Part shown: piece by piece, positions 30,989 to 61,852 of the stretch
How positions within the stretch are numbered: the first letter of the stretch is position 1
Layout: each line of letters opens with the position of its first letter
NCBI RefSeq assembly: GCF_030409795.1
Contig: NZ_JAUFQN010000019.1
Coordinates: forward strand, 186,001 to 250,000
From: Flavobacterium paronense
GTDB taxonomy: Bacteria > Bacteroidota > Bacteroidia > Flavobacteriales > Flavobacteriaceae
DNA length: 64,000 nt
Direction of reading: 5' to 3'
Notes under the pieces: model-generated
What the model saw: only the letters and a program-made list of their open reading frames with translations
Database searches by the model: none
Told to the model about the DNA's origin: nothing
Position numbers and translations under genes: made by a program

Positions 30989-32257
30989 ATGAGCAAATAT
31001 GTTACAGCATCCGAAGCGGTCAAAGTCGTAAAATCTAATGATAGAGTTTACGTTCAGGCAGCCGCGGCAACCCCAACCATTTTAACCAAAGCCTTAGCCG
31101 AACGAGCATCAGAACTTCGCAATGTTGAGGTTTGTCATTTGCATACCGAAGGCGAAGCTGCCTATGCCAATCCTGATTTATCAGAAAGTTTTCATGTAAA
31201 TTCTTTTTTTATTGGTGGTAATGTTCGCCATACTTTAGCTGCAGGAAATGGTTCTTATACGCCAGTTTTTCTTAGCGAGTTGCCTTACTTATTTCGTAAA
31301 AATGTGTTGCCCATTGATGTGGTTTTTATTCATGTATCTCCTCCTGATAAACATGGTTATTGTTCACTGGGAGTTTCTATAGAAGCTACTGTTGCCGCTA
31401 TTGAAAATGCCAAAATTGTGATTGCACAAGTCAATCTACAAATGCCAAGAACTTTTGGAGACGGAATTATTCATGTGTCCGAAATTGATTATTTGGTTGA
31501 GGTTGATGTGCCAATTTTTGCTCATGATGTAATCCCTTTCACTAAAGAGGAAGAAAAAATAGGAGGATTTATCGCCTCTTTGATAGAAGACAGAAGTACA
31601 CTGCAAATGGGAATTGGTTCTATTCCTGATGCAGCATTAAGCAAATTAAAAAACCATAAAGACTTAGGAATACATTCTGAAATGTTTTCTGACGGTGTGA
31701 TCGATTTGATTGAAAGCGATGTTATCAATTGCAATTATAAAGGCACATTACGCGGAAGAGTTTTGGCTACTTTTTTAATGGGTTCAAAACGTCTTTATGA
31801 TTATGTAAATGACAATCCATTTATTGAAATGAAAGAATCTTCAATGGTTAATGACACAGCTCGAATTCGAAAAAACCCAAAGATGGTTGCTATTAATTCA
31901 GCTATTGAAGTGGATGTAACCGGGCAAGTTTGTGCCGATTCCATTGGAGCCAAAATGTACTCTGGTGTTGGCGGTCAAATGGATTTCATTCGCGGTGCCT
32001 CTTTAAGCGATGGCGGAAAAGCGATTATTGCCTTGCCTTCTATTACCAAAAGAGGAGAAAGTAGAATTGTTCCTTATTTAAAACAAGGCGCCGGAGTTGT
32101 ATCAACACGGGCTCATGTGCAATACATTATTACCGAAAACGGCATAGCCAATTTATATGGTAAAACACTAAAACAACGGGTAACCGAAATGGTCAAAATT
32201 GCACATCCTACGCATCAGGAAAGTGTTGAAAGAGCGTATTTTGATATGTTGAGATAA
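30989..32257 (+). CDS. Acetyl-CoA hydrolase/transferase family protein
   Basis: A 422-residue CoA transferase of the acetyl-CoA hydrolase/4-hydroxybutyrate CoA-transferase family. The GIGSIPDAALSKL motif and the catalytic-Glu loop DLGIHSEMFSDG are present, as is the C-terminal GVGGQMDFIRGASLSDGGKAI. It exchanges CoA between short acyl groups; succinate, acetate or 4-hydroxybutyrate are all possible. The upstream ATG at 30929 would add 20 residues but contains the -7 box, so ATG 30989 is taken. A terminator follows at 32266-32287. Confidence 0.9.
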   Translation: MSKYVTASEAVKVVKSNDRVYVQAAAATPTILTKALAERASELRNVEVCHLHTEGEAAYANPDLSESFHVNSFFIGGNVRHTLAAGNGSYTPVFLSELPYLFRKNVLPIDVVFIHVSPPDKHGYCSLGVSIEATVAAIENAKIVIAQVNLQMPRTFGDGIIHVSEIDYLVEVDVPIFAHDVIPFTKEEEKIGGFIASLIEDRSTLQMGIGSIPDAALSKLKNHKDLGIHSEMFSDGVIDLIESDVINCNYKGTLRGRVLATFLMGSKRLYDYVNDNPFIEMKESSMVNDTARIRKNPKMVAINSAIEVDVTGQVCADSIGAKMYSGVGGQMDFIRGASLSDGGKAIIALPSITKRGESRIVPYLKQGAGVVSTRAHVQYIITENGIANLYGKTLKQRVTEMVKIAHPTHQESVERAYFDMLR

Positions 32258-32265
32258 AAAAAAGA

Positions 32266-32287
32266 AGCCCCGAGTTATCGGGGCTTT
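32266..32287. terminator. Terminator downstream of the CoA transferase gene
   Basis: AAGCCCCGA/TCGGGGCTT around GTTA, followed by TCTTTTTT on the plus strand. Confidence 0.9.
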
Positions 32288-32341
32288 CTTTTTTAATAGG
32301 GTAGCCATCCTATTCATCGAGTGGTTACTGGTTTTCTCTTC

Positions 32342-33070
32342 TCAATTTTTAACGGCAATCACTTTAGCAGGGCTACACTCTTTGTTATTTACATAATTCT
32401 TTTCGGTAAATTTAGTGGTAGTGTAAAAGAACAGTTTGGCACAAACCAGTAGCAGTTGTCCCTCAGGAAGTACAGGACTGGTCCAAACGGTTTCGGTTAG
32501 GGTTTCTTCCTTTTTTTCTATTGGGAGCCTAGTGAACGCTTCAGTGTATTTAGTGTTATCTTCAAAGTTGGTCCCTAGAACATAAAGTAGCAGCTCGGCT
32601 TTTTCGGTGCCTTTGGCGAAACGCATAGCTGTTTTTGGGTTAAAGGCAGGAACCGTTACGACCACTTGGTTTTGGTCGTTTAACAAAGCAGCTATTTCGG
32701 GAGCAAAGTACTTGGTAAAGGGGGAGTAGGTGTTAAACTCAAAACCCGTTAGCAAATCCATAGTGCTGTTTACCGGCGTACGCATGCCTTTTGGCAAGGC
32801 AGTATTTAACTGTATTGCCTTGTATACTTGTCCGGCCAGACGGCTGTACATATAGTGATCCGTGTGATTTGCCAAAAATGAGGTCAGCCCTATACGCAGC
32901 CATTTTGCCCAGCTACTGCATTTTCGAAACTCAGACCCACTAATTATAGTATCGGTTGTCTGTTTAATGTCCTTACGTTTCTGTTGTATAATTTGTTTTT
33001 TTCTCACATCACGGAAAACTATGTTTCCAATAGCGCCACTAATCAATTTGTTTTTGTTTATTCTTGCCAT
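32342..33070 (-). CDS. Conserved-looking orphan protein, function unknown
   Basis: A 242-residue protein with no recognised enzyme motif, no signal peptide and no transmembrane segment. Its N-terminus ARINKNKLISGAIGNIVFRDV resembles the 'GxxGNxVF' start seen in some Bacteroidota proteins of unknown function (DUF6266-like); this is a weak recollection. Three 60-base lines inside the gene that I counted hold 26-27 G+C (43-45%), against 17-18 (28-30%) in one line each of the CoA transferase and gpmI. The codon use therefore differs from the neighbours, as in transferred genes. It lies alone, with an unusual symmetric array immediately upstream. Confidence 0.65.
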   Translation of the reverse strand: MARINKNKLISGAIGNIVFRDVRKKQIIQQKRKDIKQTTDTIISGSEFRKCSSWAKWLRIGLTSFLANHTDHYMYSRLAGQVYKAIQLNTALPKGMRTPVNSTMDLLTGFEFNTYSPFTKYFAPEIAALLNDQNQVVVTVPAFNPKTAMRFAKGTEKAELLLYVLGTNFEDNTKYTEAFTRLPIEKKEETLTETVWTSPVLPEGQLLLVCAKLFFYTTTKFTEKNYVNNKECSPAKVIAVKN

Positions 33071-33096
33071 GATTTCCTAATTTAGATTTATACATA

Positions 33097-33193
33097 TCTA
33101 TAATATTTCTGTACTAAATCTATAATAACTTTATAAAAAAAGCTATTTCTTATAGATTCGTTATAGACTTATTATAGACTCACTATAGAATTA
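33097..33193. repeat. Dyad-symmetric array of 11-bp units (TCTATAA / TTATAGA)
   Basis: Left half: TCTATAA-like 7-mers at 33097, 33108, 33119 and 33130. Right half: TTATAGA-like 7-mers at 33150, 33161, 33172 and 33183. Every step is 11 bp and all four left/right pairs are symmetric about position 33143. Arms 33097-33136 and 33150-33189 are complementary at 29 of 40 positions. It lies between the orphan gene (ATG at 33070) and the gpmI terminator. Confidence 0.85.
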
Positions 33194-33249
33194 TCAAAAA
33201 CGATGCCACAGCAAAATCTACTCGAAAGCAAAAGATTTTCCATAAAAAA

Positions 33250-33269
33250 AGCCTCTCATCTGAAAGGCT
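33250..33269. terminator. Terminator downstream of gpmI
   Basis: On the minus strand AGCCTTTC/GAGAGGCT form a stem around AGAT, followed by a run of seven T. It ends the gpmI transcript. Confidence 0.75.
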
Positions 33270-33291
33270 ATATTGTATAGAAAATGAGCTG

Positions 33292-34809
33292 CTATAATAG
33301 CGAATGACTTGTCATTACTGCTGGTTTTTCAATTCCCATTAATTCTAAAATGGTAGGAGCAAGGTCGCCCAAAACGCCATCGTGTATGGTTTTAAGTTCT
33401 TTATCTACTAAAATTATCGGCACTGGGTTAGTGGTGTGTGCGGTATTCGGACTTCCATCCGGATTTATCATCGTTTCACAATTGCCATGGTCAGCTATGA
33501 TAATCGTCGTATAATTATTTTCAAGGGCAGCTTCTACCACTTCTTTTACGCAGGCATCAACGGCTTCGCAAGCTTTAATTGCGGCAGCCATAACACCAGT
33601 GTGTCCCACCATATCGCCATTGGCAAAGTTGAGGCAAACAAAATCTACTTTACCTTCTTTAAGCTCTGGTACCAAGGCATCCTTTAATTCAAAAGCGCTC
33701 ATTTCGGGTTGTAAATCGTAGGTTGCAACCTTTGGTGAGTTTCTTAATATTCGGGTTTCGCCATGAAAAGGCTGTTCTCTTCCGCCCGAGAAAAAGAAAG
33801 TAACGTGAGGATATTTCTCAGTTTCGGCAATACGAATTTGTGTTTTGTTATGTTTTTCTAATATTTCGCCAAGTGTTTCAGTGATGTTGTCTTTGTCATA
33901 TATTACATGAACGTTTTGATAGGTATCATTATAATTAGTCATCGTAACATAATACAAATTCAATTTATGCATGTTGTGCTCGTGAAAATCTTTTTGCGAG
34001 AGTGCTTCGGTCAATTCACGTCCTCTATCAGTTCTAAAATTGAAGAAAATTACTACATCATCATTTTGTATAGTGGCAATTGGTTTGTCATCAATATCAA
34101 CAGCGGTTAACGGAAGAATAAATTCATCGGTAACGGTATTGGCATAACTTTCGGCTATGCTTTCGACTAAATTTGAGCTGTGTTTTCCTATTCCATTTAC
34201 CAATAAATCGTATGCAAGTTTGATGCGTTCCCAACGTTTATCTCTATCCATAGCATAATAACGACCAACTACAGTAGCTAATTTCACGGTAGAGTTTTGA
34301 ATATAGTTTTCTAAATCCTGAATATATTTTTTCCCAGATTTTGGGTCTACATCGCGACCATCGGTGAATGCGTGAACAAATACTCTATCCAAACCAAAAT
34401 CCTGTGAAGCATCAATTAAACTTCGAAGATGTGACGTGTGTGAATGCACACCACCATCAGAAACCAATCCTAAAAAGTGAACCGCTTTGTTATTACTTTT
34501 GGCATAATTAAAAGCATCAATCAAAGGCTGTTCTTGACTCATGGTTTTGTTTTTGACCGCCAGATTTATTTTTGCCAAATCCTGATAAACAATTCTTCCA
34601 GCACCAAGATTCATATGGCCAACCTCACTGTTTCCCATTTGACCTTCAGGCAGACCAACATTAAGTCCGTCAGTTCGTAATTGCGCGTTAGGATATTTTT
34701 GATATAAACTATTTATAAAAGGGACATTGGCATTGTCAATAGCAGAAACTTTTGGGTCAGGAGATTTTCCCCAACCGTCCAATATCATAAGAATTACTTT
34801 TTTGTTCAT
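33292..34809 (-). CDS. gpmI: 2,3-bisphosphoglycerate-independent phosphoglycerate mutase
   Basis: A 505-residue alkaline-phosphatase-superfamily enzyme interconverting 3- and 2-phosphoglycerate in glycolysis and gluconeogenesis, using two metal ions (usually Mn). Asp11 in LMILDGWG and the phosphorylated serine Ser61 in GNSEVGHMNLGAGRIVYQD are present, as are SDGGVHSH, FTDGRD, NFRTDRGREL and IADHGNCE, all standard for GpmI. Length matches the family. A -7 box lies at 34826-34833. Confidence 0.97.
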   Translation of the reverse strand: MNKKVILMILDGWGKSPDPKVSAIDNANVPFINSLYQKYPNAQLRTDGLNVGLPEGQMGNSEVGHMNLGAGRIVYQDLAKINLAVKNKTMSQEQPLIDAFNYAKSNNKAVHFLGLVSDGGVHSHTSHLRSLIDASQDFGLDRVFVHAFTDGRDVDPKSGKKYIQDLENYIQNSTVKLATVVGRYYAMDRDKRWERIKLAYDLLVNGIGKHSSNLVESIAESYANTVTDEFILPLTAVDIDDKPIATIQNDDVVIFFNFRTDRGRELTEALSQKDFHEHNMHKLNLYYVTMTNYNDTYQNVHVIYDKDNITETLGEILEKHNKTQIRIAETEKYPHVTFFFSGGREQPFHGETRILRNSPKVATYDLQPEMSAFELKDALVPELKEGKVDFVCLNFANGDMVGHTGVMAAAIKACEAVDACVKEVVEAALENNYTTIIIADHGNCETMINPDGSPNTAHTTNPVPIILVDKELKTIHDGVLGDLAPTILELMGIEKPAVMTSHSLL

Positions 34810-61796: not shown

Positions 61797-61852
61797 AATT
61801 TAGGATTTAGGAAGTATCTAAATCCCAATTCCTAAATCCCAATTCCTAAATC
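61797..61852. repeat. 14-bp tandem repeat with inverted copy, inside the dcw operon
   Basis: AAATCCCAATTCCT occurs at 61820-61833 and 61834-61847, with a partial third copy. The inverse GATTTAGGA stands at 61804-61812, so TCCTAAATC can pair with it. It lies in the 59-bp murD-ftsW gap. Confidence 0.7.

Follow-up and report, generated by a model that had tools for sequence, protein, structure and literature searches.

In REPIN-RAYT systems, the nearest in organisation to the locus described here, a gene is accompanied by palindromic repeats dispersed across the genome, and different genes have different repeats. In type III toxin-antitoxin loci (ToxIN), tandem repeats are found upstream of a gene and the repeat type is specific to the cognate protein; these repeats are larger than the unit dealt with below and possess no palindromic half. 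A further point of comparison is CarH, a regulator of the MerR type. Copying of REPIN-RAYT repeats is believed to be aided by the gene's protein (PMC8049555, PMC2817692), and RAYTs are described as tyrosine transposases of the IS200/IS605 type, with the Pfam domain Transposase_17 and with two flanking, inverted REPs that carry a GT(A/G)G head (PMC2817692). The operators of CarH, which are the nearest operators to our array, are described as tandem repeats of 11 bp, three or four in number, that share one face of the DNA (PMC9304148). Short, intergenic TAACTGA direct repeats have been reported from Beggiatoaceae and some Bacteroidetes; in the passages of that report drawn on here they differ from our array in being one fixed heptamer, with no tie to one gene family and seldom inverted (PMC4679880).

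The array studied here lies in a window of 64,000 nucleotides from Flavobacterium paronense (contig NZ_JAUFQN010000019.1, positions 186,001 to 250,000), by which we mean the whole stretch of DNA analysed. Read in the orientation of its cognate gene (32342..33070, minus strand), it begins with a direct half of four 11-bp units, GATAATTCTAT, AGTGAGTCTAT, AATAAGTCTAT and AACGAATCTAT (33152..33195, minus strand), and continues through an A/T-rich dyad centre without strand (33137..33151), which separates the two halves, into an inverted half with four mirrored cores on the 11-bp grid, two exact and two degenerate (33097..33136, minus strand). The ATG of the gene is located 81 nt past the end of the fourth direct unit. 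The preliminary description had placed eight cores on an 11-bp grid mirrored about position 33143, and this was borne out by the letters, the left cores reading TCTATAA (33097), TCTGTAC (33108), TCTATAA (33119) and TTTATAA (33130) and the right cores TTATAGA (33150, 33161 and 33172) and CTATAGA (33183). TRF recorded the right half as a repeat of period 11 with 3.6 copies and 82% matches, while an inverted-repeat search returned an inverted pair of 44 nt, 73% complementary, with a 5 nt gap. When the whole 64 kb window was scanned for 4x11 arrays, the right half ranked first (0.77 identity, the best unrelated site reaching 0.58) and the left half fourth (0.56), the dyad of the latter (0.76) being the best among the eight sites listed. 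Of 200 dinucleotide shuffles made from the 400 nt upstream, none scored as high as the array, which together with its place at the top of the scan indicates that the arrangement is better than expected in shuffled A+T-rich sequence, a control suggested in the preliminary description. Elsewhere in the window (61818-61852), a perfect 14-bp tandem repeat of 2.5 copies (CTAAATCCCAATTC) was observed.

The gene is flanked by genes for a phosphoglycerate mutase (iPGM_N, PF06415) and for an acetyl-CoA hydrolase/transferase (PF02550, PF13336), and has three divergent paralogs in its own genome (46, 33 and 26% identity). The window locus is repeated, with nearly exact flanks, on a 13.5 kb contig (C6:7046-10765; G000, L002/L006), where the copy of the gene is broken by small indels (87%, one stop); the G000 assembly is listed with 9.66% contamination, and either strain variation or faulty assembly may account for this copy.

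Within the genus, 74 of 398 genomes had a profile match to the protein at E 1e-20, and across the phylum 30 of 395 had one at E 1e-10; many of these matches belong to a distant branch, family B, in which many proteins begin with MARQKG. The family proper was defined as the 34 non-duplicate loci with a profile score of at least 100, minus a duplicate contig (L002) and a broken gene (L012), giving 32 members with the window gene included; L058 (score 99.5) fell just under this cut-off though its array is perfect, and the starts of L011 and L094 were shifted by hand to the family start. An upstream array (at least 0.65 identity, within 400 nt) was found in 30/32 members and a downstream array within 400 nt in none of the 32, the median best 4x11 identity being 0.77 upstream versus 0.44 downstream. 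The link of arrays to homologues of the 32342-33070 gene, which the preliminary description had proposed to look for, thus holds. In 31 of the 32 members none of 200 shuffles reached the observed score (L046 was reached by 2/200), and 11 was the best period among 7-16 in 30/32; the arrays of L046 and L095 are weak. A common layout was seen across loci, with four direct 11-mers, a short centre (often an A-run plus a T-run) and then inverted units. The distance to the ATG is near-constant inside four groups (127-129, 111-112, 100-101 and 156-159 nt) and varies over the whole family, being 81 nt at the window locus and reaching 311 elsewhere.

Among 62 lower-scoring relatives, mostly of family B, most were without a clear array, while 11 had arrays whose scores were reached by 0/200 shuffles, among them five loci from other families of the phylum (L068, L069, L088, L090 and L091). 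At L242 (G334:C1:1321260), an array of the word TAGATACTCCAT was noted at a distance of about 155 nt from a gene of family B (63 bits), and arrays with a word of their own may occur in some members of this branch. We also observed a recurring family-B block (L016:1012-2994 and similar loci) composed of a small divergent gene, the family-B gene, a DUF5675-type gene and a small hydrophobic gene, holin-like by eye, which is possibly a lysis or phage-derived module. Among the loci compared, a related small divergent gene lay upstream in 38 and a related downstream gene was present in 38; in the L016 set, the one set tested, the downstream gene is DUF5675.

The words of the units differ between loci, as exemplified by GATGAGTCCAT, GTGTGTCCGAT, AGCTAGTCCAT, GTTGGTCGGCT and TATGATCGGGA, and unit likeness was 0.789 inside arrays versus 0.447 between arrays. 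Unit distance was found to follow protein distance (Mantel rho 0.627, 0/2000 permutations) over 26 of the 32 loci, with L010, L046, L094, L095, L011 and L055 left out of the table. The own genome holds four gene-linked arrays with four different units, so a single host factor with a single site would not explain the arrays. A fixed TCTATAA core, as had been put forward for searching related genomes, is unsuitable as a family search, because cores vary from locus to locus and a large part of the family would go undetected.

The cognate gene encodes a protein of 242 amino acids with a basic N-terminal part and, in an AlphaFold model (mean pLDDT 90.5), a C-terminal beta-sandwich of weak and generic likeness to Ig/FnIII/C2 beta-sandwiches (best Z 6.3). 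The window protein matched no Pfam, NCBIfam or PADLOC entry, PADLOC remaining without a match for it at E 0.1; no Pfam family was matched at E 0.01 by any of the 32 aligned members, PHROGs gave a single match at E 0.065, and a PDB sequence search returned only YebC (E 0.51). A Csx1 match in one of the two relatives scanned by PADLOC (E 0.007, 13.8 bits) was judged to be chance. Foldseek against the PDB gave one match below E 0.001, the proteinase inhibitor 3isy (9.8e-4), and none below E 0.001 in the viral library. The N-terminal part consists of strands and helices in the model; modelled alone it was poor (mean pLDDT 73.9), with a best Z of 3.0 among 34 chains, and no DNA-binding fold was recognised. 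Its charge is pronounced, with a net +12 over residues 1-90 of the window protein and, among 29 proteins, a median net of +12 for the first 90 residues against -5 for the remainder, and the columns conserved at 85% or above in these 29 proteins contain no H, Y, D or E. Given this basic N-terminal part and the lack of H, Y, D and E in the conserved columns, we think that the protein probably binds rather than cuts DNA. No enzyme signature that explains copying was found in it.

A phage origin was rejected, the window protein and the G297 element (DNA) having no match in a phage collection, and likewise a plasmid origin, as one relative's protein and window 32942-33292 (DNA) had no match in a plasmid collection. 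Profile A2 found no relative in viral contigs; in genome contigs it recovered 20 loci, against none with the window protein alone as query.

Arrays were also found away from any family gene. The own genome has five clear arrays and one weak array of this kind. Three of the six are located upstream of rpsL, between recO and ileS, and between rnhA and a pfkB-like gene (names from ORF reading), two belong to the GTGTGTSCGAT type, and one near C19:967530 is degenerate; in the DNA examined around them no family ORF was detected at E 0.01. At the rnhA/pfkB-like place, L039 has an array plus the gene between those same neighbours, and L040 has an array plus the gene beside the same pfkB-like gene as the gene-less array of the own genome. 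The most populous case is the genome G297, in which 47 loci gave an exact pattern match, one of them gene-linked; a family ORF was present in only one (L308) of the 40 copies examined, and the other 39 had none.

In likeness to REPIN-RAYT, the dispersed repeats mostly match a resident gene: for 72 of 91 gene-less arrays (31/50 outside G297) the nearest gene-linked array was that of their own genome, among 33 gene-linked arrays of which at most four came from any one genome, a match partly ascertained because the gene-less arrays were found with patterns taken from gene-linked units, and a count that treats L242 as gene-less despite its family-B gene about 155 nt away and includes the doubtful arrays L248 and L250. 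The remaining 19/91 were nearest to the gene of another genome; five gene-less arrays in G018 had no cognate gene found, and those of G097 carry a different word from its gene. Over 101 genomes, gene-less pattern matches were present in 5/9 genomes with the gene versus 15/92 others (Fisher p 0.014, gene-linked arrays not counted), and in 6/9 versus 15/92 (p 0.0023) when gene-linked arrays were included.

In viral contigs the array pattern was found in 23 stretches, none of which contained a family ORF at E 0.01 within the DNA examined. In six of these contigs (L202, L203, L213, L214, L217 and L199) AGTCCAT was seen at 11-bp steps, with up to 11 consecutive units in L214 and no family gene in the stretch, whereas further pattern stretches look like plain repeats (ten viewed). 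By eye, a CTGTATAGTTATTTTAGGACGGGTC- or TAGGACGAGACA-like sequence was noted near many arrays in several genomes (L009, L011, L055, L065, L178, L180, L224, L235 and L237), and may be the end of an IS or MITE that prefers array sites.

In G297, 22 of whose long copies were aligned, similarity reaches from about -230 to +260 around the array; this long unit was absent from 30 other genomes at E 1e-6. Most other genomes compared show similarity over about 60-140 bp at the array, at roughly 71-98% identity, with longer stretches in G014 and G097. Turnover was apparent between two species of the genus, G123 and G020, which have a gene-linked locus in common (90% identity over 3.8 kb) and share none of the gene-less positions among the 8 and 7 compared, eight of nine gene-less places of G123 having been taken into the comparison. 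The two orthologous intervals open to comparison were without an array, having best 4x11 identities of 0.58 and 0.42, versus 0.76 and 0.91 in the occupied species; the intergenic DNA of the pair is too diverged for an empty site to be aligned at base resolution. No target-site duplication or clean element end was seen by eye in the 22 aligned long G297 copies. The common gene-linked locus (L387/L388), at 90% over 3.8 kb against about 69-75% in the other flanks compared, may have been exchanged between lineages or may be unusually conserved.

We favour, at even confidence, the explanation that the array is a cooperative recognition site of the protein encoded directly downstream, with autoregulation at the home locus, and that the array is also copied to other places in the genome; protein binding, autoregulation and the manner of copying are what we infer. 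Protein copies would be arranged along a single DNA face, covering the four direct units of 11 bp and, past the centre, the mirrored ones, and would probably contact DNA through the basic N-terminal part. As different gene copies have different unit words, the paralogs of one genome would not need to cross-react. Copying to other, mostly intergenic sites would involve, for most of the genomes compared, a block of about 60-140 bp, and would give genes separate populations of gene-less arrays in the manner of REPIN-RAYT, while the array at the home locus would most likely also control the expression of its own gene. The preliminary description had offered a cooperative operator as one possibility, and the one-turn spacing and locus-specific units do fit a cooperative protein site.

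It is unlikely, though to be taken seriously, that the arrays are instead a MITE- or REPIN-like mobile element, with the protein acting as the element's transposase and having a fold that has yet to be recognised. Consistent with this, the copies are dispersed and mostly intergenic (among the 39 gene-less arrays of G297, 1 overlaps an ORF of at least 100 aa, by mechanical ORFs), similarity covers whole arrays in blocks of the size and identity given above, positions are not common to the two species, and genomes with the gene hold gene-less matches more often. Against it, and in contrast to RAYTs, a HUH (His-hydrophobic-His) motif was found in 0/29 proteins, the best columns reaching H 9, Y 16, D 23 and E 22 of 29, and no member has Transposase_17. 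No transposase was among the fold matches listed, an absence that by itself leaves room for one. Moreover, the array stands on one side of the gene only, upstream in 30/32 and downstream in 0/32, whereas a RAYT gene is flanked on both sides, and the repeat here consists of an 11-mer unit in four direct copies together with inverted ones. The idea of a small mobile element in the preliminary description survives in so far as gene-less arrays exist and are placed differently in two species; its 'decayed terminal structure' is not supported, as the layout is conserved and there is no partner array downstream.

A second alternative, in which the gene-less arrays are operators of a regulon under the cognate protein and are kept in place by selection, appears decidedly improbable. 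The unit corresponds to one helical turn, four direct units occur in some CarH operators as described (PMC9304148), and two arrays lie upstream of core genes (rpsL and ileS by ORF reading), all of which would suit a regulon. However, the G297 arrays appear randomly oriented to their neighbours (20 tandem, 8 convergent, 7 divergent and 4 unclassed, n=39, mechanical ORFs), similarity reaches past the unit cores, and positions differ between the two species; the G297 arrays look as though they have spread with little regard to promoters. The likeness to CarH is also limited, as its unit is described as nnnnTnnACAn and its regulator as B12-dependent (PMC9304148), whereas here the unit varies between loci and the protein has no Pfam match. 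With no Pfam family in the 32 members at E 0.01, no MerR-type DNA-binding domain was found.

We regard it as very doubtful that the array acts as RNA, either as a hairpin leader or as a small RNA controlling the gene. Folding of the gene-sense strand as RNA was better than that of its shuffles (z -3.2), while the + strand as DNA showed no such advantage (z -1.0). The central stem is largely retained in G297, but position 6 is unpaired in 10/40 copies (8 G-G, 2 C-C; 39 gene-less plus L308), so pairing does not hold that base. In the same genome, TAnnTTTG was found 161-190 nt upstream in 25/40 copies, and a four-pair hairpin in 27 copies (24 distinct) had 100% of cells paired and a covariation of 0.454 versus 0.259, with 0/500 shuffles reaching it for paired cells, doubly changed cells or covariation. 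This hairpin lies outside the array, however, was observed only in G297 and was unexceptional on two of five measures (149/500 and 21/500 shuffles). TAnnTTTG was present in the region of 7/29 gene-linked loci and in 0/29 together with a spaced TTG, and no Rfam family was matched at gathering score, only sub-threshold, by window 31900-33600 and 16 related loci. The hairpin RNA of the preliminary description is thus weak in its pure form, given the inner stem unpaired at position 6, although a covarying hairpin is present in G297 beyond the array. Some array copies may be transcribed. Separately, the long G297 copies (L302-L340), which often have TAnnTTTG about 180 nt upstream and the compensatory four-pair hairpin, could represent a small RNA family with tens of members. 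ToxIN differs from the system here, which has dispersed gene-less copies, and no ToxN-like endoribonuclease fold was among the fold matches listed.

The pattern of exchanges within units was also considered. In 36 arrays, two-letter columns were C/G in 28 cases versus 15 for A/C plus G/T, compared with 2 versus 18 in the flanks, which gives a hint of a strand-symmetric reading. The hint is a weakly controlled one, as the flanks are more A+T-rich and, when complementary exchanges (A/T plus C/G) are pooled, arrays (50:15) and flanks (45:18) do not differ (p 0.55).

That the array is a functionless, chance A+T-rich simple repeat, as the A+T-rich window unit might suggest, is next to impossible to maintain and is contradicted by the 64 kb scan, the shuffles, the arrays at 30/32 family members and the G/C-rich units elsewhere (GTGTGTCCGAT, GTTGGTCGGCT) in identical layout.

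A literature search, mostly at the level of titles and the beginnings of abstracts, recognised no description of this system in those parts of the records. As the protein, unit and layout match no family tested, we file the gene-array system under neither REPIN-RAYT nor CarH and call it new as a class, with a function that we infer. A bolder proposal, which we consider possible but put forward tentatively, is that it represents a new self-spreading repeat system of Bacteroidota, in which a protein without a transposase signature and a cooperative array of 11-bp units diversify together into pairs that exclude one another, the array being spread through the genome in protein-bound form by a copying route not described for REPINs or MITEs.

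What has been found is a conserved pairing of gene and repeat, belonging to no named family, in a common genus of bacteria, with upstream 11-bp arrays present as well in some distant relatives from other families of the phylum. Since repeat words differ between genes, the family provides a natural set of candidate orthogonal protein-DNA pairs for tests of specificity. If the arrays spread without a transposase, their copying route would be a new question, and if they are operators, they would make up a fast-changing regulatory network.
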